From Opitutaceae bacterium (GTDB lineage Bacteria; Verrucomicrobiota; Verrucomicrobiia; Opitutales; Opitutaceae): a stretch of DNA of 37,312 bases. The stretch is taken from positions 1 to 37,312 of the forward strand of contig JANJTQ010000134.1 in the NCBI GenBank assembly GCA_024711005.1. The letters run 5' to 3'. Made by a program: the position numbers and the translations under genes. Of the stretch, positions 14,769 through 24,812 are shown in pieces (position 1 is the stretch's first letter; every line of letters begins with the position of its first letter). A model generated the notes under the pieces. The model was not told where the DNA came from. It saw only the letters and a list, made by a program, of their open reading frames with translations, and searched no databases.

Positions 14769-16265
14769 TCAAGTGTTCCACTGGGCATCGTTGTCCTTTG
14801 CGATCCGTGCCATCGACCGTCGCGTGAGCACGGAGCTGTCGTCCCGACGGGCCGAAATGGGTTTGGCGGCTTGTCCGGATTTCGCGATCAGCCACACGTC
14901 TTTTCCGTCGTTGCTGCGGATTCTGAACAGGTGCCACTCGCCTTTCAGCTTTTTGCCGGCGAGCCGCAGTTTTAGGTTTCCCGAGGCGTAATCTCCGCCG
15001 AGCACCTCGTAGGTGCCGATGTCCCAGACCATGACGGTGCCGCCGCCATACTGGCCCTTGGGGATCGTTCCTTCGAACTTTAGGTAGTCCAGCGGATGAT
15101 CTTCGACTGCGAAGGCGGAGCGTTTAACGCCGAGTTCGGTCGGGATGCCCTTCGGAATCGCCCACGATTTCAAGGTCCCATCCATCTCCAGGCGGAAGTC
15201 GTAGTGCAGGTGCGAGGCCGCGTGTTTTTGGATGACGAAACGGTTTTCCTTTCCACCAGTGCGCCGCTTCCTCGACACGGGACCCGGCTCTTTCGTTTTG
15301 GAGAAGTCCCGCTTCGCCCCGTAGTCCTTTAGGGTCTCTGTCGTGGACGCCGTGAAAATGGCTTTTGGACCGAACGCCCGCGGGAGTTTTTGCTTCAGCG
15401 TGAGCACGGGCGCGAAGAGGTCGCCGGTTTTTTTCAGGCGCTTGAGCGCGGCCTCGGGCGTGAAGAAAAGGGTCGTTGGCCGCCTGAGCCGTTTCAGTTC
15501 GTCCCACGCCACGGGCATGGAGATGAACGGTTCGTCGCGTTTTCCGCGCAGGGAATAAACCGCCACGGTCGTCTTGGACCGGTTGTTCTGACTCCAGTCG
15601 ATCAGCACCCGGCCGCGGCGGTGGTGCTTGGACATCTTGCTTACGATCAGCTCGGGATGCTGTTGCTGCAAAAGCTCGGCCACGGCCTTGGCGAAAGAGG
15701 CGGTCGCCTCGTAAGTCGTCTTGGTGTTCAAGGGAACGTAAAGTTGAAGCCCTTTCGATCCGGAGACCTTGGGGAACGCCTTTAGCGAGAGGCCGTCGGT
15801 GATCTCTTTCACGAGAAAGGCCGCGCGTGCGCACGTGCGAATGTCCGAGCCTTCGCCAGGATCCAGGTCGAACACGACGTGCGTGGGCTGATCGATTTTG
15901 GGCGCCCGGTGGAGGAACGGGTGAAGCTCCACGGCGGCGAGATTTGCGCACCACGCGAGCGTCGAGATGTCGTTTACCAGAATGTAGTTGGTTTGTCCGG
16001 GGTGATGCCGCCGGTCGACCGCGTAGGTCTTGATCCATGACGGTGCGAACTTCGGGGCATTTTTTTCGTAGAATTTTTCTCCCTCCACCCCGTCGGGATA
16101 ACGAATGAGCGTCACGGGCCTTTGCTTGAGGTGGGGAAGGATGAACGCGGAGACGTCCACGTAGTACTGAATCATCCGGCCCTTGGTGAAACCTGTCTTT
16201 GGGAAGAACACCTTGTCGAGATTGGTGAACCCGACCTTGGGTGTTTTGGAATGCGTCGCACACAT
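14769..16265 (-). CDS. ligD: LigD polymerase-phosphoesterase protein lacking the ligase domain
   Basis: 498 aa from the ATG at 16265. Residues 10-290 are the LigD primase-polymerase (THVVFDLDPGEG with catalytic aspartates, VSGSKGLQLYVPL, GRVLIDWSQNN). Residues about 340-490 are the 3'-phosphoesterase (NRFVIQKHAASHLHYDFRLE with metal-binding His and Asp, KGQYGGGTVMVWD). Domain order equals the first two thirds of mycobacterial LigD, but no ligase domain follows. It starts one base after the Ku stop (16267), so Ku and this gene form one transcription unit. An in-frame start further upstream (16328) would overlap Ku. It would process ends and fill gaps during NHEJ. Confidence 0.9.
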   Translation of the reverse strand: MCATHSKTPKVGFTNLDKVFFPKTGFTKGRMIQYYVDVSAFILPHLKQRPVTLIRYPDGVEGEKFYEKNAPKFAPSWIKTYAVDRRHHPGQTNYILVNDISTLAWCANLAAVELHPFLHRAPKIDQPTHVVFDLDPGEGSDIRTCARAAFLVKEITDGLSLKAFPKVSGSKGLQLYVPLNTKTTYEATASFAKAVAELLQQQHPELIVSKMSKHHRRGRVLIDWSQNNRSKTTVAVYSLRGKRDEPFISMPVAWDELKRLRRPTTLFFTPEAALKRLKKTGDLFAPVLTLKQKLPRAFGPKAIFTASTTETLKDYGAKRDFSKTKEPGPVSRKRRTGGKENRFVIQKHAASHLHYDFRLEMDGTLKSWAIPKGIPTELGVKRSAFAVEDHPLDYLKFEGTIPKGQYGGGTVMVWDIGTYEVLGGDYASGNLKLRLAGKKLKGEWHLFRIRSNDGKDVWLIAKSGQAAKPISARRDDSSVLTRRSMARIAKDNDAQWNT

Positions 16266-16266
16266 G

Positions 16267-17100
16267 CTAGGCGGCCTTGGCGCGTGGCCGCGTCTTCGTC
16301 TTGCGGGCTGGTTTGGATTTGGCGCCACCTGCTTCCTTCAAGCTTTGCTGGAGGACGGCGGCGAGATCGATGACGTTGGTTGCCTGTTTGCGGGCGTGAC
16401 CTCCGGACGGCAGTTTCTTGCCGCCGCTCTTCACTTTCTGGTCGATCAATTTCATCAGCGCCGAGCGGTAGTCGTCGGAGTAACGATTGGGATCCCACTT
16501 CGCGGTGAGTTGGTCCACGAGGGTCTTGGCCATGGTGAGTTCACGCTTGCCGGGCGTCTTGTCCTCGACGCCTTTGATCGCCGGCGGATCCACGATTTCA
16601 TCGGCGAAGCGCATCAACTCAAGTACCAGCAGATCGCCGTTGGCCTTGACCGCGGCGAGATGCTGCCGTGTGCGAATAATCACTTTGGATATTCCCGCCT
16701 TGTTGGTCTGTGCGAGCACGTCACGCAAAAGGTGATACGCGGTGCCGCCGCCCTTCTGGGGTTCGAGATAATACGGACGGTGGAAAAAGATCGGATTGAT
16801 CTCCGTGAGATCCACGAAATCCACGATGTCGATCGTGTCGGTCGCCTCCAGATCCACGCGTTTGAAATCCTCATCCTTCAGGACGACGAATTTCCCTTTC
16901 TCGTATTCGTATCCCTTGACGATTTCGTCCCACGGCACCTCCTTGCCGTCCACCGCGGCCACGCGCTTGTAATTGACCGGGCTCAAATCGGAGCGACGAA
17001 GCAGTTTGAACTTGAGCTCTTCGCTGCGGCTGGCGGTCTGCAGCGCGACGGGGATGCTGACCAGACCAAAGGTGATCGAGCCTTTCCAGATGGAGCGCAT
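16267..17100 (-). CDS. ku: Non-homologous end joining protein Ku
   Basis: 277 aa, within the usual bacterial Ku range. It begins MRSIWKGSITFGLVSIPVAL, the standard Ku N-terminus, and contains FFHRPYYLEP and KRELTMAKTLVDQL, both conserved. The C-terminal tail after about residue 225 is rich in lysine and arginine (SKPARKTKTRPRAKAA), as in Ku proteins with a DNA-binding extension. It forms a homodimer that encircles broken DNA ends and recruits LigD. It is the first gene of a two-gene unit with the LigD Pol-PE gene. Confidence 0.95.
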   Translation of the reverse strand: MRSIWKGSITFGLVSIPVALQTASRSEELKFKLLRRSDLSPVNYKRVAAVDGKEVPWDEIVKGYEYEKGKFVVLKDEDFKRVDLEATDTIDIVDFVDLTEINPIFFHRPYYLEPQKGGGTAYHLLRDVLAQTNKAGISKVIIRTRQHLAAVKANGDLLVLELMRFADEIVDPPAIKGVEDKTPGKRELTMAKTLVDQLTAKWDPNRYSDDYRSALMKLIDQKVKSGGKKLPSGGHARKQATNVIDLAAVLQQSLKEAGGAKSKPARKTKTRPRAKAA

Positions 17101-19419: not shown

Positions 19420-19911
19420 ATGTCCACCGAATCCCTGAAACAACTTCTGGTCGAAGAACTCAAAGATATTTACGACGCGGAAAAACAACTCGTGAAGGCC
19501 CTGCCCAAAATGGCCAAGGCCGCTTTCGACGAAGAACTGAAGGCCGATCTCACGGCGCATTTCGAAGAAACCAAGGAGCATGTCACTCGACTGGAACGGG
19601 TCTTCAAACTCCTCGACGAACCCGCCAAGACCAAGTCCTGTCCGGCGATGCGAGGCCTGATCGAAGAAGGCTCCGAGGCTCTTGAGGAGAAGGACGTATC
19701 CGCCGTGCGAGACGCCCAGATCATCGGCTCCGCCCAACGAATCGAACATTACGAGATGGCCGCCTACGGCACCGTCCGGACGCTGGCGGAGACGCTCGGA
19801 GAGGACGAGGTTGCTGAAATCCTCCAGATGACCCTCGACGAGGAAGGCGAAGCCGACAAAAAGCTCACCATGGCCGCCGCCACCGTGAACGAGGCGGCGC
19901 TCACCGAGTAG
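19420..19911 (+). CDS. DUF892 (YciE-type) ferritin-like protein, first paralogue
   Basis: 163 aa. Four-helix ferritin-like protein of the DUF892/YciE family: LLVEELKDIYDAEKQLVKAL at the start, HFEETKEHVTRLE and QRIEHYEMAAYGTVRTLAE supply the Glu and His residues expected to bind two metals. Family members are induced by stress and starvation in enterobacteria, and a role in oxidative or osmotic stress is likely but unproven. The gene is followed after 25 bp by the isochorismatase-like gene. A second paralogue lies at 24309. Confidence 0.92.
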   Translation: MSTESLKQLLVEELKDIYDAEKQLVKALPKMAKAAFDEELKADLTAHFEETKEHVTRLERVFKLLDEPAKTKSCPAMRGLIEEGSEALEEKDVSAVRDAQIIGSAQRIEHYEMAAYGTVRTLAETLGEDEVAEILQMTLDEEGEADKKLTMAAATVNEAALTE

Positions 19912-19936: not shown

Positions 19937-20419
19937 ATGAAGAAGAAGACCGGCCGGGCGCAGGCGGCACTCGTTGTCGTCGACGTGCAGCAGGCCTTTT
20001 CGGTTCCGACGAAAATCGTGGAGGGAATCCGGCGTTATTCACGTCGCTTTCGGCAACGAATCTTCACGCAATTCGTCAACCCGCCCGGTTCGCTTTTCCG
20101 CAAGAAACTCGGCCAAGGCTCGTGTGCTCCCGGTTCGGGCGACCTGCGTTTGATCGTGCGGCCCGACCCGGGTGACATGGTCATTCGCAAGGCGGGCTAT
20201 GGACTCAAGGCGCGCGATATCCGACGAATCAAAAATGCCGGCGTGACCCGGGCGATCGTATGCGGAGTCGATACGGACGCCTGTGTGCTCGGGGTCATGT
20301 TTTCGTTGTTTGACGCCGGCATTGTCTGCCACGTGAAAGAAGACCTGTGCTGGAGTTCCACGGGGCTGCATGAAGCCGGGCTGAAGATCATTCGCGAACA
20401 GTTTCCGACCCCTCGTTAG
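19937..20419 (+). CDS. Isochorismatase-like cysteine hydrolase
   Basis: 160 aa, slightly short for the family (usually 180-210). The triad of the isochorismatase-like hydrolase fold is visible: Asp16 in LVVVDVQQAF, Lys85 in MVIRKAGYG and Cys116 in GVDTDACVLG. The usual cis-peptide region is present (CGVDTDACV). Relatives hydrolyse nicotinamide, N-carbamoyl compounds or isochorismate; the substrate here cannot be assigned. It is 25 bp after the DUF892 gene and 90 bp before the PKS operon. Confidence 0.85.
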   Translation: MKKKTGRAQAALVVVDVQQAFSVPTKIVEGIRRYSRRFRQRIFTQFVNPPGSLFRKKLGQGSCAPGSGDLRLIVRPDPGDMVIRKAGYGLKARDIRRIKNAGVTRAIVCGVDTDACVLGVMFSLFDAGIVCHVKEDLCWSSTGLHEAGLKIIREQFPTPR

Positions 20420-20509: not shown

Positions 20510-21418
20510 ATGCATGACGTCATCATCATCGGGGGCGGGCCGGCTGGCCTGAGTGCGGCGCTTTTGTTGGCGCGCTGCCGTCGCACGGTGTTTATTTTCG
20601 ATTCGGACAAACCGCGAAACGGCGTCTCGCGCGGACTGCACAGCTACCTTACGCGGGATGGCGTGGGCCCCCGCGAGTTGCGAGATCTGGGCCGGGCGGA
20701 TCTTGCCCGCTATCCTTGTGTGACGATTCACACGGATACGGTGGTTGACGCCATCAAGGCTCCGGCAGGCTTTGAGGTCGTCGCTCAGAGCGGTCGCCGC
20801 GAGCGTTCACGCTTGCTGCTGCTGGCTACGGGACGAACGGACCCGGTTCCGGACCGTCCCGGATTTCACGAATACTATGGGCGCGGGGTGTATCATTGTC
20901 CGTACTGCGATGGCTGGGAGCACCGAGGACAGGCCCTGGTGGTGATTGGAAACGGAGCGAGCGCCTTCGGTCTTGCGCGCGAGCTGCTCACCTGGAGCGA
21001 TCAGGTCGCGGTGTGCTGCGAAGGCCCTCCGGAGTGGCCAGGCGGGGTGACCCGCGCGGCCGAGTTGGGCATTCGTGTAGTCACGAGTCGCGTAAGGAGG
21101 ATCGAGGGGACGCTTGCGACGGGAATGAGCGGGATTTGTTTCGAGACCGACGAAACGCTCGCATGTGGGGCGATCTTTTTCGACCGAGAGGGCGAGCAAC
21201 GCTCCGCCTTGCCCGAAAGGTTGGGCTGCCGCTTCAATGAAGGAAATTCGGTATTATGCGAGGGAAGCGCCGTGACCGATGTTCCCGGGCTGTACGTCGC
21301 CGGCAACGTGCGCGGCGGGCTTCACCTTGCGATCACCGCGGCCGCGGAAGGTGTGGAGGCCGCCGTCGCGATGAATGCGATGCTGTTGGATCGCGCCTAT
21401 CCCCCGACTTCTCCATGA
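20510..21418 (+). CDS. Thioredoxin-reductase-like NAD(P)/FAD-dependent oxidoreductase
   Basis: 302 aa from the ATG at 20510 (MHDVIIIGGGPAGLSAALLL); an in-frame ATG at 20441 would add 23 residues without family support. The FAD motif is GGGPAGLSAA, the redox pair is CPYC (in GVYHCPYCDGWE), and the second Rossmann motif is VIGNGASAFGLA, slightly divergent from GxGxxA. Overall it belongs to the thioredoxin-reductase-like flavoproteins rather than to classical TrxB. Its stop overlaps the methyltransferase start by 4 bp (ATGA at 21415-21418), so it is translationally coupled to the biosynthetic genes. Confidence 0.88.
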   Translation: MHDVIIIGGGPAGLSAALLLARCRRTVFIFDSDKPRNGVSRGLHSYLTRDGVGPRELRDLGRADLARYPCVTIHTDTVVDAIKAPAGFEVVAQSGRRERSRLLLLATGRTDPVPDRPGFHEYYGRGVYHCPYCDGWEHRGQALVVIGNGASAFGLARELLTWSDQVAVCCEGPPEWPGGVTRAAELGIRVVTSRVRRIEGTLATGMSGICFETDETLACGAIFFDREGEQRSALPERLGCRFNEGNSVLCEGSAVTDVPGLYVAGNVRGGLHLAITAAAEGVEAAVAMNAMLLDRAYPPTSP

Positions 21419-22071
21419 ATGCGACCCGTCTCGTGCGGCCCGAGATTCTTGACAGCCTGCCGGACGACGAACCGGCCGCACAACGCTCGCGGCGTGATCT
21501 ACAGGTGATCAATCGCCTGCTCGGGAGCGAACGTTGGTTCCGTCGTACGCTGGCGGAACGAGTCCGGCCGGGCGGACGGCTGCTGGAAATCGGCGCAGGC
21601 GACGGCATCTTGGGACGGAGACTGATGAAAGCGGGCCTGGGGACCGTGGCGGGTCTCGATCTGGTGGGACGTCCGCGATTCTGGCCGGAGTGGGCGCCCT
21701 GGTTTCAGACCTCGGTGTTTCATTTCGATGCGTGGTCGGACCATCCCGTGGTGATCGGAAATCTGGTTTTTCATCATTTTCGGGACGAAGAACTCGCGAG
21801 GCTAGGGGGGCAGTTGAACCTGCATGCGCGCCTGATTGTCGCCAACGAGCCCTTGCGAACCCCTCGGGCGGCGCGGCTTTTTTCCGCGCTCTGTCCGCTG
21901 ATTCGGGCTGATTCGGTGACGCGTCACGATGGGAAGGTAAGCATCGCTGCGGGATTCAGAGACGATGAGCTCGCCGTTTTGTTGGGGCTCGATGCGAAAA
22001 TCTGGACGTGGCGTGTAGAGAAAACCGTGCTGGGCGCCGCCTGCAGACTCATAGCGGAAAGGCGTTCATGA
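21415..22071 (+). CDS. Class I SAM-dependent methyltransferase
   Basis: 218 aa from the ATG at 21415. The SAM-binding motif I is LLEIGAGDGILGRRL; a motif resembling post I is VAGLDLVG, and VIGNLVFHHFRDEELARLGG is in the position of motifs II/III. It overlaps both neighbours by ATGA. In three-gene cassettes with type III PKS and a flavoprotein, such enzymes O- or C-methylate the PKS product, which is the likely role here. Confidence 0.88.
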   Translation: MNATRLVRPEILDSLPDDEPAAQRSRRDLQVINRLLGSERWFRRTLAERVRPGGRLLEIGAGDGILGRRLMKAGLGTVAGLDLVGRPRFWPEWAPWFQTSVFHFDAWSDHPVVIGNLVFHHFRDEELARLGGQLNLHARLIVANEPLRTPRAARLFSALCPLIRADSVTRHDGKVSIAAGFRDDELAVLLGLDAKIWTWRVEKTVLGAACRLIAERRS

Positions 22072-23099
22072 CCGCGGGATCCAGGCCGGTTGAAATTATC
22101 GGAGGCGGGCTGGCCGGACTCGCCCTCGGCATCGGGCTGCGGCGAGCGGGCGTGCCGGTTACGGTGTTCGAGGCGGGAGATTATCCGCGGCATCGTGTTT
22201 GCGGGGAGTTCATCGCCGGGTTGCCGGACGAGGTGTCGAGGAAACTGGGGATCGAAGATGTATTCGAGGGATCAATACTAAATACGAAGGTGTGTTGGTT
22301 TTTGAAAGACCGGAGGATCGGCGACATGCGGTTGCCTCGGGCGGCGATCGGGATCAGCCGTTTTATGCTCGATGCGCGCCTGGCAAGACTGTTTGTCGGG
22401 CGAGGAGGCAGGCTGGTAACGCGTCGGCGGATGGCATCCGACGTTCATGGGCCGGGCCGGGTGCTGACCGCCGGCCGGCGACGGTATGCCGACTCGCCGT
22501 GGGTCGGACTCAAGGCGCATGTGCGCAATCTGTCTCTCGGGGCCGACCTGGAGTTGCACCTGGGAACGGGCGCCTATGTGGGGTTGTCGCGAGTCGAAGA
22601 AGGTTGGATCAACCTGTGTGGTCTTTTTCGACGGCGGAGCGGACTGCGGGGTGATTCGCCGGAGGGGCTGGCAAGAACGCTGCGAAGCAGCGGATTATTC
22701 GCATTGGCGGAACGGGTGGGCGGTGTCGAGTTACGGCGGGGTTCGGCATGCGCGGTGGCGGGCTTTGTCTTCGACCGGAGGGTCGGACAACGCGGCGCGG
22801 TGGCGCTGGGTGACAGCTGCGCCGTGGTTCCGCCGTTCACCGGAAACGGCATGGCGATGGCGTTGACCGGAGCGGCGCTCTCGCTCGATCCGCTGCTCGA
22901 CTGGGCGCGTTATCGGGCGTCTTGGGAGGATGCTTCCGCAACGATTCAGGAAGGGCTCCAACACGAGTTCCGCGTGCGGTTGAGAGGGGCGGCACTGTTG
23001 CATCCGATGCTGCTCGATCCGGCGGGGCAGTCTTGTCTGGGCGCGCTCGCACGCACCGGCCTGCTCCCCCTTCGTCCGCTTTATCATTTGTTGCACTGA
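22068..23099 (+). CDS. FAD-dependent oxidoreductase, geranylgeranyl-reductase/hydroxylase type
   Basis: 343 aa from the ATG at 22068, overlapping the methyltransferase stop by 4 bp. The N-terminal FAD motif IIGGGLAGLALGIGLRRAGV is followed by VFEAGDYPRHRVCGEFIAG, the RxCGE feature of geranylgeranyl-reductase and related flavoprotein monooxygenases. GAVALGDSCAVVPPFTGNGM is the second FAD contact. In type III PKS gene sets such flavoproteins oxidise the resorcinol or pyrone product, so a tailoring hydroxylation or oxidation is likely. Confidence 0.88.
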   Translation: MTAGSRPVEIIGGGLAGLALGIGLRRAGVPVTVFEAGDYPRHRVCGEFIAGLPDEVSRKLGIEDVFEGSILNTKVCWFLKDRRIGDMRLPRAAIGISRFMLDARLARLFVGRGGRLVTRRRMASDVHGPGRVLTAGRRRYADSPWVGLKAHVRNLSLGADLELHLGTGAYVGLSRVEEGWINLCGLFRRRSGLRGDSPEGLARTLRSSGLFALAERVGGVELRRGSACAVAGFVFDRRVGQRGAVALGDSCAVVPPFTGNGMAMALTGAALSLDPLLDWARYRASWEDASATIQEGLQHEFRVRLRGAALLHPMLLDPAGQSCLGALARTGLLPLRPLYHLLH

Positions 23100-23108
23100 A
23101 TCCGGCTT

Positions 23109-24155
23109 ATGTTTTTGCACGCGCTCTCCACCGCCGTTCCGGAACGCTCGCTTACACAGCGGGAGTGCTGGGATATTCTTCGCGAGTCGGATGTGCGCGC
23201 ACGTTTGAACCGACGATCGGTGCTGACGATGCAAGCAATCTTGCGGGGTGACAGCGGTATTGACCGAAGGCATTTCGCAACGCCCGCGGTGGAGAATGTC
23301 TGGAAACGTACGCCGGACGAACTCAACGAGGCGTTTCGAGAAGCGGCGCCGAAGCTGGCGGGCCGGGCGTTGGAGTCGGCGCTCGCGCTCGCGAAACTGG
23401 TGCCGGAGGAGATCGATGCACTGCTTGTTTGTACCTGCACCGGCTATCTGTGTCCCGGGCTCACGAGCTATATTGCGGAGCGGATGGGACTGCGTGCGAA
23501 CGCCTGGCTGCAGGACTTGGTGGGCTCGGGTTGCGGTGCGGCGATCCCGCTGATGCGCGCGGGGAGCGCGGTCCTGGCGGCGCAGCCCGAAGCGGTGGTG
23601 GCCTGCGTCGCCGTGGAGGTGTGTTCGGCGGCGTTCTACCTGGATGACGATCCGGGCGTGTTGGTGAGTGCGTGTTTATTTGGCGACGGGGCCGCCGCAA
23701 CGATTTGGCGGGCGACGCCCGGTCCGACGGGAATTCGCTGCGGTGGGTTCAACACGCTGCACCAACCGGCTTATCGGGATTTTATCCGTTTCGAAATGCG
23801 CGAGGGGCGACTGCGAAATCTATTGCGTGCCGAGGTTCCCGCCGTGGCCGCCGCGGCCGTGAGGCATTTACTCGACGAAGAAATCGCGCGGGCAGACGAG
23901 CGTCCGGTCGCCCGTCTGATCGCGCACACGGGAGGACGGGATGTGCTTGATGCGATCGAAAATGCGTGTCCGGGATATCGGCTTGATGTCAGTCGGAATG
24001 TGCTGCGTGGCTTTGGCAACATGAGCAGTCCTTCGGTATTGTTTGCGTTGGAAGGGGCGCTCGACGAAGGACCTCCGCCGGATGAGAGCGGGGACTGGAT
24101 GCTGGTGAGTTTTGGCGCCGGATTCGGCGCGCACGCCTGCAGGATTTTAACGTAA
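23109..24155 (+). CDS. Type III polyketide synthase (chalcone/stilbene synthase family)
   Basis: 348 aa. The thiolase fold is full length for bacterial type III PKS. Catalytic residues by motif: Cys142 in LVGSGCGAAIPLM, His273 in IAHTGGRDVLD and Asn304 in RGFGNMSSPSVLF. It would extend an acyl-CoA starter with malonyl-CoA and cyclise to a resorcinol, pyrone or similar ring. It begins 9 bp after the flavoprotein stop, making it the last gene of the operon that starts with the thioredoxin-reductase-like gene. The starter is unknown; fatty acyl starters are usual for such cassettes. Confidence 0.92.
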   Translation: MFLHALSTAVPERSLTQRECWDILRESDVRARLNRRSVLTMQAILRGDSGIDRRHFATPAVENVWKRTPDELNEAFREAAPKLAGRALESALALAKLVPEEIDALLVCTCTGYLCPGLTSYIAERMGLRANAWLQDLVGSGCGAAIPLMRAGSAVLAAQPEAVVACVAVEVCSAAFYLDDDPGVLVSACLFGDGAAATIWRATPGPTGIRCGGFNTLHQPAYRDFIRFEMREGRLRNLLRAEVPAVAAAAVRHLLDEEIARADERPVARLIAHTGGRDVLDAIENACPGYRLDVSRNVLRGFGNMSSPSVLFALEGALDEGPPPDESGDWMLVSFGAGFGAHACRILT

Positions 24156-24308: not shown

Positions 24309-24812
24309 ATGTCCAAACTCACGACACCTCGCGATCTCCTGGTGCAGGAAATCAAGGATCTTTACAGTGCCGAAACCCAACTGATCAAAGCGCTTCCGCG
24401 GATGGCAAAAGCCGCCGGTCACGCAGATCTGAAAAATGCGTTCACACAGCACCTCGAAGAAACCAAAAGGCATGTGGCGCGTATCGAAGAAATCATGACC
24501 AGACTTGACGAGACGCCCCGCGGTAAAAAATGCAAGGCGATGGAAGGGTTGCTCGAAGAGGCTCGTGAAGTCGTCGAAGGTACTGCGCCTCCGGAGATCA
24601 AAGACCTCGCGCTCATTGCCGCCGCGCAAAAGGTGGAGCATTACGAAATCGCCGGTTACGGCTGTGCTCGCACGTTGGCCGACCTGATCGGCGAGAGTGA
24701 ACTCGCCGACACGCTTCAAGAAACCCTCGATGAAGAGGGGACCACCGACAAGCTGCTCACTGAAGTCGCGATGGGCATCAATGTTGAAGTAGGCGTGACT
24801 GCGGGGGATTAA
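24309..24812 (+). CDS. DUF892 (YciE-type) ferritin-like protein, second paralogue
   Basis: 167 aa, clearly paralogous to the protein at 19420: LLVQEIKDLYSAETQLIKAL, HLEETKRHVARIE and QKVEHYEIAGYGCARTLAD align with it. The metal-ligand pattern is retained. It lies 153 bp after the PKS stop and so may have its own promoter. With the copy at 19420 it brackets the isochorismatase and PKS genes. Confidence 0.92.
   Translation: MSKLTTPRDLLVQEIKDLYSAETQLIKALPRMAKAAGHADLKNAFTQHLEETKRHVARIEEIMTRLDETPRGKKCKAMEGLLEEAREVVEGTAPPEIKDLALIAAAQKVEHYEIAGYGCARTLADLIGESELADTLQETLDEEGTTDKLLTEVAMGINVEVGVTAGD

Follow-up and report, generated by a model that had tools for sequence, protein, structure and literature searches.

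The 37,312-nucleotide stretch of DNA analysed here (the window) is contig C11 (JANJTQ010000134.1) of the 5.0-Mb draft genome of an Opitutaceae bacterium (assembly GCA_024711005.1) of the phylum Verrucomicrobiota. Four open reading frames on its + strand span positions 20510-24155 of the window. The last three of them, encoding a methyltransferase (MT), a protein resembling monooxygenases dependent on flavin adenine dinucleotide (FAD) and a type III polyketide synthase (PKS), constitute a unit that is kept in this order in most of the relatives' loci examined. These three genes probably form a phenolic-lipid cassette, a Verrucomicrobiota member of the MT-oxidoreductase-type III PKS kind, whose predicted product is a methylated, ring-hydroxylated alkylresorcinol or quinone. 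The four genes are the following.

Gene 1: 20510-21418, + strand, 302 amino acids; thioredoxin-reductase-like NAD(P)/FAD dithiol oxidoreductase with a CPYC motif, a neighbour that is probably not core
Gene 2 (core gene 1): 21415-22071, + strand, 218 amino acids; class I S-adenosylmethionine-dependent MT
Gene 3 (core gene 2): 22068-23099, + strand, 343 amino acids; FAD-dependent monooxygenase-like protein
Gene 4 (core gene 3): 23109-24155, + strand, 348 amino acids; type III PKS with Cys142-His273-Asn304

A first-pass annotation of this DNA had described a four-gene layout in which ATGA overlaps join three genes and a 9-bp gap precedes the last. Three genes joined in this way imply two overlaps, and our coordinates and junctions match: the overlap (a gap of -4) lies between genes 1 and 2 and between genes 2 and 3, and genes 3 and 4 are 9 bp apart. 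The related genome G004 holds homologues of all four genes with 68-77% identity, and the differences between the two genomes reach 0.43-0.54 per site at third codon positions versus 0.13-0.26 at the other two. As the differences are mostly at third positions, the genes are conserved as proteins. The locus is not a chance assembly, because each gene has a homologue in G004 and genes 2-4 are linked in most of the relatives' loci examined. Three promoter-like sites were predicted in the window, none of them ahead of the operon, and there are 8 terminator-like sites, where shuffled sequences have a mean of 5.6 (standard deviation 2.6).

Conservation of the three-gene unit

A search of 56 genomes, among them that of the window, gave 30 with a PKS at E ≤3.4e-93, the next matches being at E 1e-10 or weaker. 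Two overlapping sets of loci were compared, one of 29 loci from relatives and one of 80 named loci, the best 80 of 557 relatives. In 26 of the 29 loci, the MT, FAD protein and PKS genes are consecutive in this order; the exceptions are L056, without the MT gene, and L058 and L060, with the PKS gene only. All three genes are present on one strand in 65 of the 80 best named loci, the others holding the MT and PKS genes (8 loci), the FAD and PKS genes (4) or the PKS gene only (3); in L111 and L140, two loci of the last kind, the PKS gene lies <1 kb from the contig end. Order and both junctions could be measured in 59 of the 65 three-gene loci, and the MT/FAD junction is a 4-base overlap in 49 of these, a count slightly biased toward such overlaps by the choice of the start nearest the query's start. 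Adjacent MT, oxidoreductase and PKS genes in the order of the cyanobacterial operon hidABC are thus found in the window, in the 26 loci and in the 59 named loci measured.

As a control, an even sample of 145 genomes across the phylum was searched with profiles; the best candidates of a first look were scored, and weak extra copies may be missed. The PKS profile gave 31 matches at E ≤1e-20, 17 of them at 447 bits at least and the other 14 at 90-299 bits. FAD-profile matches at E 1e-20 occur in 16 genomes, all of them within the 17 with a strong PKS match. The MT profile matched 66 genomes at E 0.001, with at least 165 bits in 17; 16 of these also belong to the strong-PKS genomes, the extra one being G117, whereas in G054 only the PKS was found. 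Of the 16 genomes that hold all three genes, 14 have them side by side, and in the other two one gene lies on another contig (the PKS in G175, the MT in G062). In the neighbourhood comparison, the MT/FAD/PKS linkage is kept and that of gene 1 is not. The conserved unit consists of three genes, 21415-24155, not four.

The labels of the best 80 of the 557 PKS loci all belong to Verrucomicrobiota lineages, mostly Opitutaceae, Opitutae or Opitutus. The closest named relative by PKS (77%) is a metagenome-assembled genome (MAG) of Rariglobus sp., L061, whose contig is the same as that of G004. Opitutaceae-like PKS genes were also seen in L068, L083, L106, L111, L124 and L140, whose records name Chthoniobacter, Akkermansia muciniphila, Verrucomicrobiales or Limisphaerales. 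Part of these MAGs may be mislabelled, and L106 clusters with an Opitutaceae row in the PKS tree.

Eight of the named loci have MT and PKS genes and no FAD gene recognisable at E 1e-8 (L075, L084, L093, L099, L100, L114, L117 and L138), and they resemble the two-gene form of Stieleria maiorica (PMC10896814).

The type III PKS

Three type III PKS models of Pfam (Chal_sti_synt and FAE1_CUT1_RppA domains) pass their gathering scores with the gene 4 product. All 26 aligned PKSs, that of the window among them, have Cys142, His273 and Asn304, which bears out the intact Cys-His-Asn triad claimed in the first-pass annotation. Together with the thiolase fold of the predicted structure (predicted local distance difference test, pLDDT, 91.3), these features identify the protein as a type III PKS. 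The top VIA-align match of the model is PKS11 (Z 45.3, 339 residues, root-mean-square deviation 1.8), and the other rows listed, plant stilbene, pyrone and chalcone synthases among them, are 1.7-2.7 Z lower; the list is made up of PKS11 and mostly plant synthases and does not exclude families absent from it. By sequence, the closest solved PKS is 1u0m, which we take to be the tetrahydroxynaphthalene (THN) synthase of S. coelicolor, and PKS11 comes second. Membership in the DpgA family (NCBIfam NF042429) was rejected, since the score is 136.1 against a cut-off of 425 bits and the neighbours are an MT and a FAD protein, not dpgB and dpgC.

A tree of 43 PKS rows, with no enzyme known as an alkylresorcinol synthase among them, groups the window with L061 and G001 (100/100) inside a clade of 31 Verrucomicrobiota rows (100/99). 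Caballeronia stands next to this clade (96/78), followed by three divergent Verrucomicrobiota PKSs. PhlD, DpgA, the Streptomyces type III PKS, Methylobacterium and G111 carry a long-branch warning, and our conclusions draw on two groupings only, that of the window with L061 and G001 and that of the 31 rows. This clade has a signature of its own, a CTCTGY[LI]CP loop in 29 of 31 rows and an L-[RK]-N motif in all 31. The Asn of this motif follows a basic residue and is Asn237 in the window PKS, where it aligns with a Phe of stilbene synthase, presumably the gatekeeper at the tunnel entrance, and the same column holds Phe in DpgA and in one Streptomyces PKS. The starter-residue columns were compared in a set without a known alkylresorcinol synthase, and nothing is concluded from them on starter length. 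A search for viral copies of the PKS gave 11 pattern matches, none of which was confirmed.

Divergent Verrucomicrobiota type III PKS genes were also observed beside FAD_binding_3 genes (L151:3148-6939, L150:1947-4273 and L153:4246-6620), one of them also with a UbiE-like methyltransferase. Such loci may represent another kind of cassette for phenolic compounds or quinones in Verrucomicrobiota.

The FAD protein and the methyltransferase

The structure model of gene 3 (pLDDT 88.1) has near-full-length fold matches to indole, 3-hydroxybenzoate, styrene and 4-hydroxybenzoate monooxygenases, squalene epoxidase and flavin halogenases, with Z 26.6-29.8 in the 50 rows listed. The GxGxxG motif (G12, G14, G17) and the GD motif (G248-D249) are invariant in 42 FAD-protein sequences. 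The two motifs and the predicted fold, similar to that of p-hydroxybenzoate hydroxylase, are those of class A-like flavin monooxygenases. Flavin-dependent halogenases have a WxWxIP motif; it occurs in 0 of the 42 sequences, and by this motif gene 3 does not count among them. A hydroxylase is the likeliest prediction for gene 3, the fold alone being indecisive.

For the MT, the E-x-G-x-G-x-G motif (E58, G60, G62, G64) is invariant in 36 of 36 sequences. Family models recognise the protein weakly. The Pfam match to Methyltransf_23 scores 19.5, under the gathering score of 27, and the NCBIfam model PRK06202 gives a partial match (residues 111-203; 60.6 bits against a cut-off of 243). PRK06202 is common to the PKS-adjacent MTs of Deinococcus (314.7 bits) and Methylobacterium (142.7 bits). 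In hhalign, the window MT matches the PKS-adjacent MT of Caballeronia over most of its length with a probability of 99.6, the E-values of such pairwise comparisons being uncorrected for database. No MT relative was found on plasmids at E 1e-5, and none among solved structures by sequence at E 0.1.

Known counterparts of the cassette

An operon with the same three predicted classes of genes, in the same order and equally compact, has been described in 58 planctomycetal strains, with the hidABC order in nearly all, and is thus common in a phylum of the same PVC superphylum (PMC10896814). The operon has three genes in G. maris and R. baltica, two in S. maiorica and a variant form in S. ferox. When expressed in C. 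glutamicum, the PKSs of G. maris, R. baltica and S. maiorica produced resorcinols with pentadecyl and/or heptadecyl chains, and that of S. ferox produced these together with methylated forms; two PKSs from outside such operons yielded no product. When the MT and oxidoreductase of G. maris were co-expressed, a single methylation was seen, probably at a carbon atom; what the planctomycetal lipids do was left open (PMC10896814). The window differs from this operon by its phylum and is known from its genes alone, whereas C15 and C17 resorcinols and one methylation were seen there on expression.

The order and content MT-oxidoreductase-PKS are also those of hidABC, the hierridin operon of Cyanobium sp. 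LEGE 06113 (PMC8086630, PMC10896814), in which HidC makes long-chain alkylresorcinols (PMC10896814). There, HidA reportedly O-methylates the two phenolic hydroxyls. Identities of 48-55% to HidA, HidB and HidC are reported for the planctomycetal proteins. In cyanobacteria, 47 hierridin-like clusters were counted (PMC8086630).

Within the Verrucomicrobiota, a type III PKS cluster has been reported for Oceaniferula flavus (PMC9865893). In Opitutales bacterium ASA1, a predicted type III PKS region (3,629,430-3,670,473; PMC10927696, PMC12193912) is centred on the PKS homologue that we found at 3,649,430-3,650,452 in G025, a genome that carries the same three genes as the window; we infer that G025 is ASA1. 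This region is a prediction only, without an assigned product, and antiSMASH likens it to an Entotheonella polyketide at 0.32. No description of the three-gene operon in Verrucomicrobiota was found in the literature searched, which was accessible in part and left out most subscription journals.

We also examined eight PKS loci on plasmids. In three of them (Caballeronia sp. SBC2, Methylobacterium oryzae and Deinococcus sp. D7000; PLSDB), PKS, MT and FAD protein genes stand side by side, one (L165) has PKS and MT, and in four neither gene adjoins the PKS. The MTs of all three triads are related to that of the window, and Caballeronia and Methylobacterium have related FAD proteins as well. The triads differ from the window in that the PKS gene comes first, and the Deinococcus FAD protein is a partial match (probability 69). 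PKS identity to the window is 42% for Caballeronia, 36% over 71% of the query for Methylobacterium and 29% for Deinococcus. The Caballeronia operon (L141:8001-12708) adds an acyl carrier protein (ACP) and a ketosynthase, and, with the ACP there, PKSs of this group might take their starter in ACP-bound form.

Gene 1 and the genomic position of the cassette

The best solved sequence match to gene 1 is 4fk1, a 'putative thioredoxin reductase', and DepH (E 1e-34) and GliT (E 3.4e-33) are among its five best. With this similarity and the CPYC of its translation as the CxxC motif, gene 1 has the features of GliT/DepH-type dithiol oxidases, oxidase and reductase not being distinguishable on these grounds. 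The family is generic, with relatives in 328 plasmid records. Close homologues occur in 4 of the 56 genomes: the window's, G004 (72%, beside the cassette), and G018 and G015 (52%, away from the PKS). Linkage of gene 1 to the PKS was found in the window and G004 only, and in 1 of the 80 best named loci (L061, on the contig of G004). In G004, a DUF748 gene lies between the gene 1 homologue and the MT gene, and it has the same place in G001, which lacks a close gene 1 homologue; in the window, gene 1 abuts the MT gene directly. The four-gene operon as a unit, as the first-pass annotation had it, did not hold, gene 1 being absent from 28 of the 29 relatives' loci within the stretch covered and from 79 of the 80 named loci. 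Judged by this distribution in the sequences, gene 1 is probably a local addition with no conserved role in the pathway. We left it out of the pathway because it belongs to a general family and its homologues are rare and mostly unlinked.

The genes flanking the four-gene locus are the following.

19420-19911: second DUF892 gene, upstream
19937-20419, + strand: isochorismatase-domain gene (Pfam PF00857), upstream; a neighbourhood marker outside the pathway
24309-24812, + strand: DUF892 gene, downstream

The isochorismatase gene and the operon are thus flanked by two DUF892 genes, and the cassette sits between the isochorismatase and the downstream DUF892 gene. Six named relatives have it between a DUF34/NIF3 gene and aroQ; another 34 named loci have both NIF3 and aroQ directly downstream of it, and aroQ is found ≤1.5 kb downstream in 40 of 80. 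In the window's genome (G000:C181:2357-3588), G004 and G001, NIF3 and AroQ matches are on another contig, separated by ~50 bp, and the one strong PKS match in each genome lies away from them. The upstream isochorismatase gene was found in L061 only among the 80 best named loci. On these gene positions, the cassette is taken to be relocated, or separately arrived, in the window's sub-lineage.

Elsewhere in the window (14769-17100, - strand), adjacent DNA ligase D-like and Ku-like genes, of the kind used in bacterial end joining, were recognised from their translations.

Proposed pathway and alternative explanations

We propose that the PKS would load a medium- or long-chain fatty acyl starter, extend it with about three malonyl-CoA units and cyclise the chain to a 5-alkylresorcinol or a related pyrone. 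The MT would add one or more methyl groups, and ring hydroxylation by the putative FAD monooxygenase would give a methylated alkyl-hydroquinone or quinone, probably located in the membrane. The sequences and models show the enzyme classes of the PKS and the FAD protein, the intact PKS triad and the conserved linkage; the starter, the ring closure, C- versus O-methylation, the hydroxylation and the function are inferred here by analogy with the published operons, the order of the reactions is a proposal and the product is predicted. The likeness to alkylresorcinol or quinone cassettes noted in the first-pass annotation thus stands for genes 2-4, through their content and order, the published precedents (PMC10896814, PMC8086630) and the predicted fold of gene 3; for gene 1 it is not supported, and the kind of cassette was probably guessed correctly as far as these three genes go.

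Several points weigh against a phenolic-lipid cassette. The likeness to hidABC and the planctomycetal operon was traced through gene content and order. No oxidised product was seen with the planctomycetal operon, where the role of the oxidoreductase was left open, and deletion of the S. maiorica PKS gave no growth or ampicillin phenotype (PMC10896814). No NCBIfam model among those listed reaches its cut-off for any of the four proteins. The PKS forms a clade of its own with Asn237 in place of the stilbene synthase Phe, its nearest solved sequence is the presumed THN synthase and not an alkylresorcinol synthase, and the top match of its predicted fold, PKS11, is an alkylpyrone synthase. In the model of gene 3, halogenases and epoxidases match the fold as well as hydroxylases do. 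Finally, the FAD gene is not recognisable in 8 and the MT absent in 4 of the 80 best named loci, and G054 has only the PKS.

Some of these points lead to other products. The PKS may use malonyl-CoA only or a small starter, as THN synthase, DpgA or PhlD would, and make a non-lipid aromatic that the MT and the monooxygenase turn into a small methylated quinone. DpgA is indeed the best curated model, though far below its cut-off, and 1u0m, the best PDB sequence match, shares with the window PKS the Cys of the CTG motif (Cys110). However, the window has no DpgB or DpgC partners, unlike the DpgA locus L143, none of the matches in the sample of 145 genomes exceeds the DpgA cut-off, and published operons of the same content lead to long-chain alkylresorcinols (PMC10896814); we regard a small-starter PKS as unlikely, if worth keeping in mind. 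An alkylpyrone synthase of the PKS11/PKS18 or myxobacterial type, with a pyrone then methylated and oxidised, would agree with the first rank of PKS11 by fold and its second by sequence, and a type III PKS cluster for alkylpyrones is conserved in Myxococcota (PMC12766979). The fold is blind to ring closure, the other rows score close behind, and a dedicated ring hydroxylase would suit a phenol better than a pyrone, so that we hold this reading to be quite improbable. The Verrucomicrobiota lineage could instead be a functionally distinct type III PKS, with the CTCTGY[LI]CP loop and the L-[RK]-N motif as its signature and possibly with an ACP-bound or unusual starter. It would then make phenolic lipids or quinones of a new class, long kept in Opitutia; this is speculative, and we would not expect it.

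A pathway of all four genes would let gene 1 make or reduce a disulfide or quinone in the product, in the manner of GliT and DepH, which act in gliotoxin- and romidepsin-type clusters. The ATGA overlap of gene 1 with the MT gene, the rank of DepH and GliT among its solved relatives and its retention upstream of the cassette in G004 speak for it. Such a pathway is nevertheless very improbable, given the loci that lack gene 1, the generic nature of its family and the fact that 26 of the 30 PKS genomes have no close homologue of it anywhere, those of G018 and G015 lying away from the PKS. A three-gene cassette for a methylated alkylresorcinol or quinone remains the reading that we favour.

Significance

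As it stands, the cassette is an expected extension of a known one. Confirmation of its product would add Verrucomicrobiota to Cyanobacteriota and Planctomycetota as phyla with alkylresorcinol operons of this type. The tight co-occurrence of the FAD gene with the PKS would then offer a handle on the role of the oxidoreductase, left open by the planctomycetal study (PMC10896814). The operon also seems to be present in ASA1, a relative in culture, and a knockout combined with lipid analysis is conceivable in this organism.

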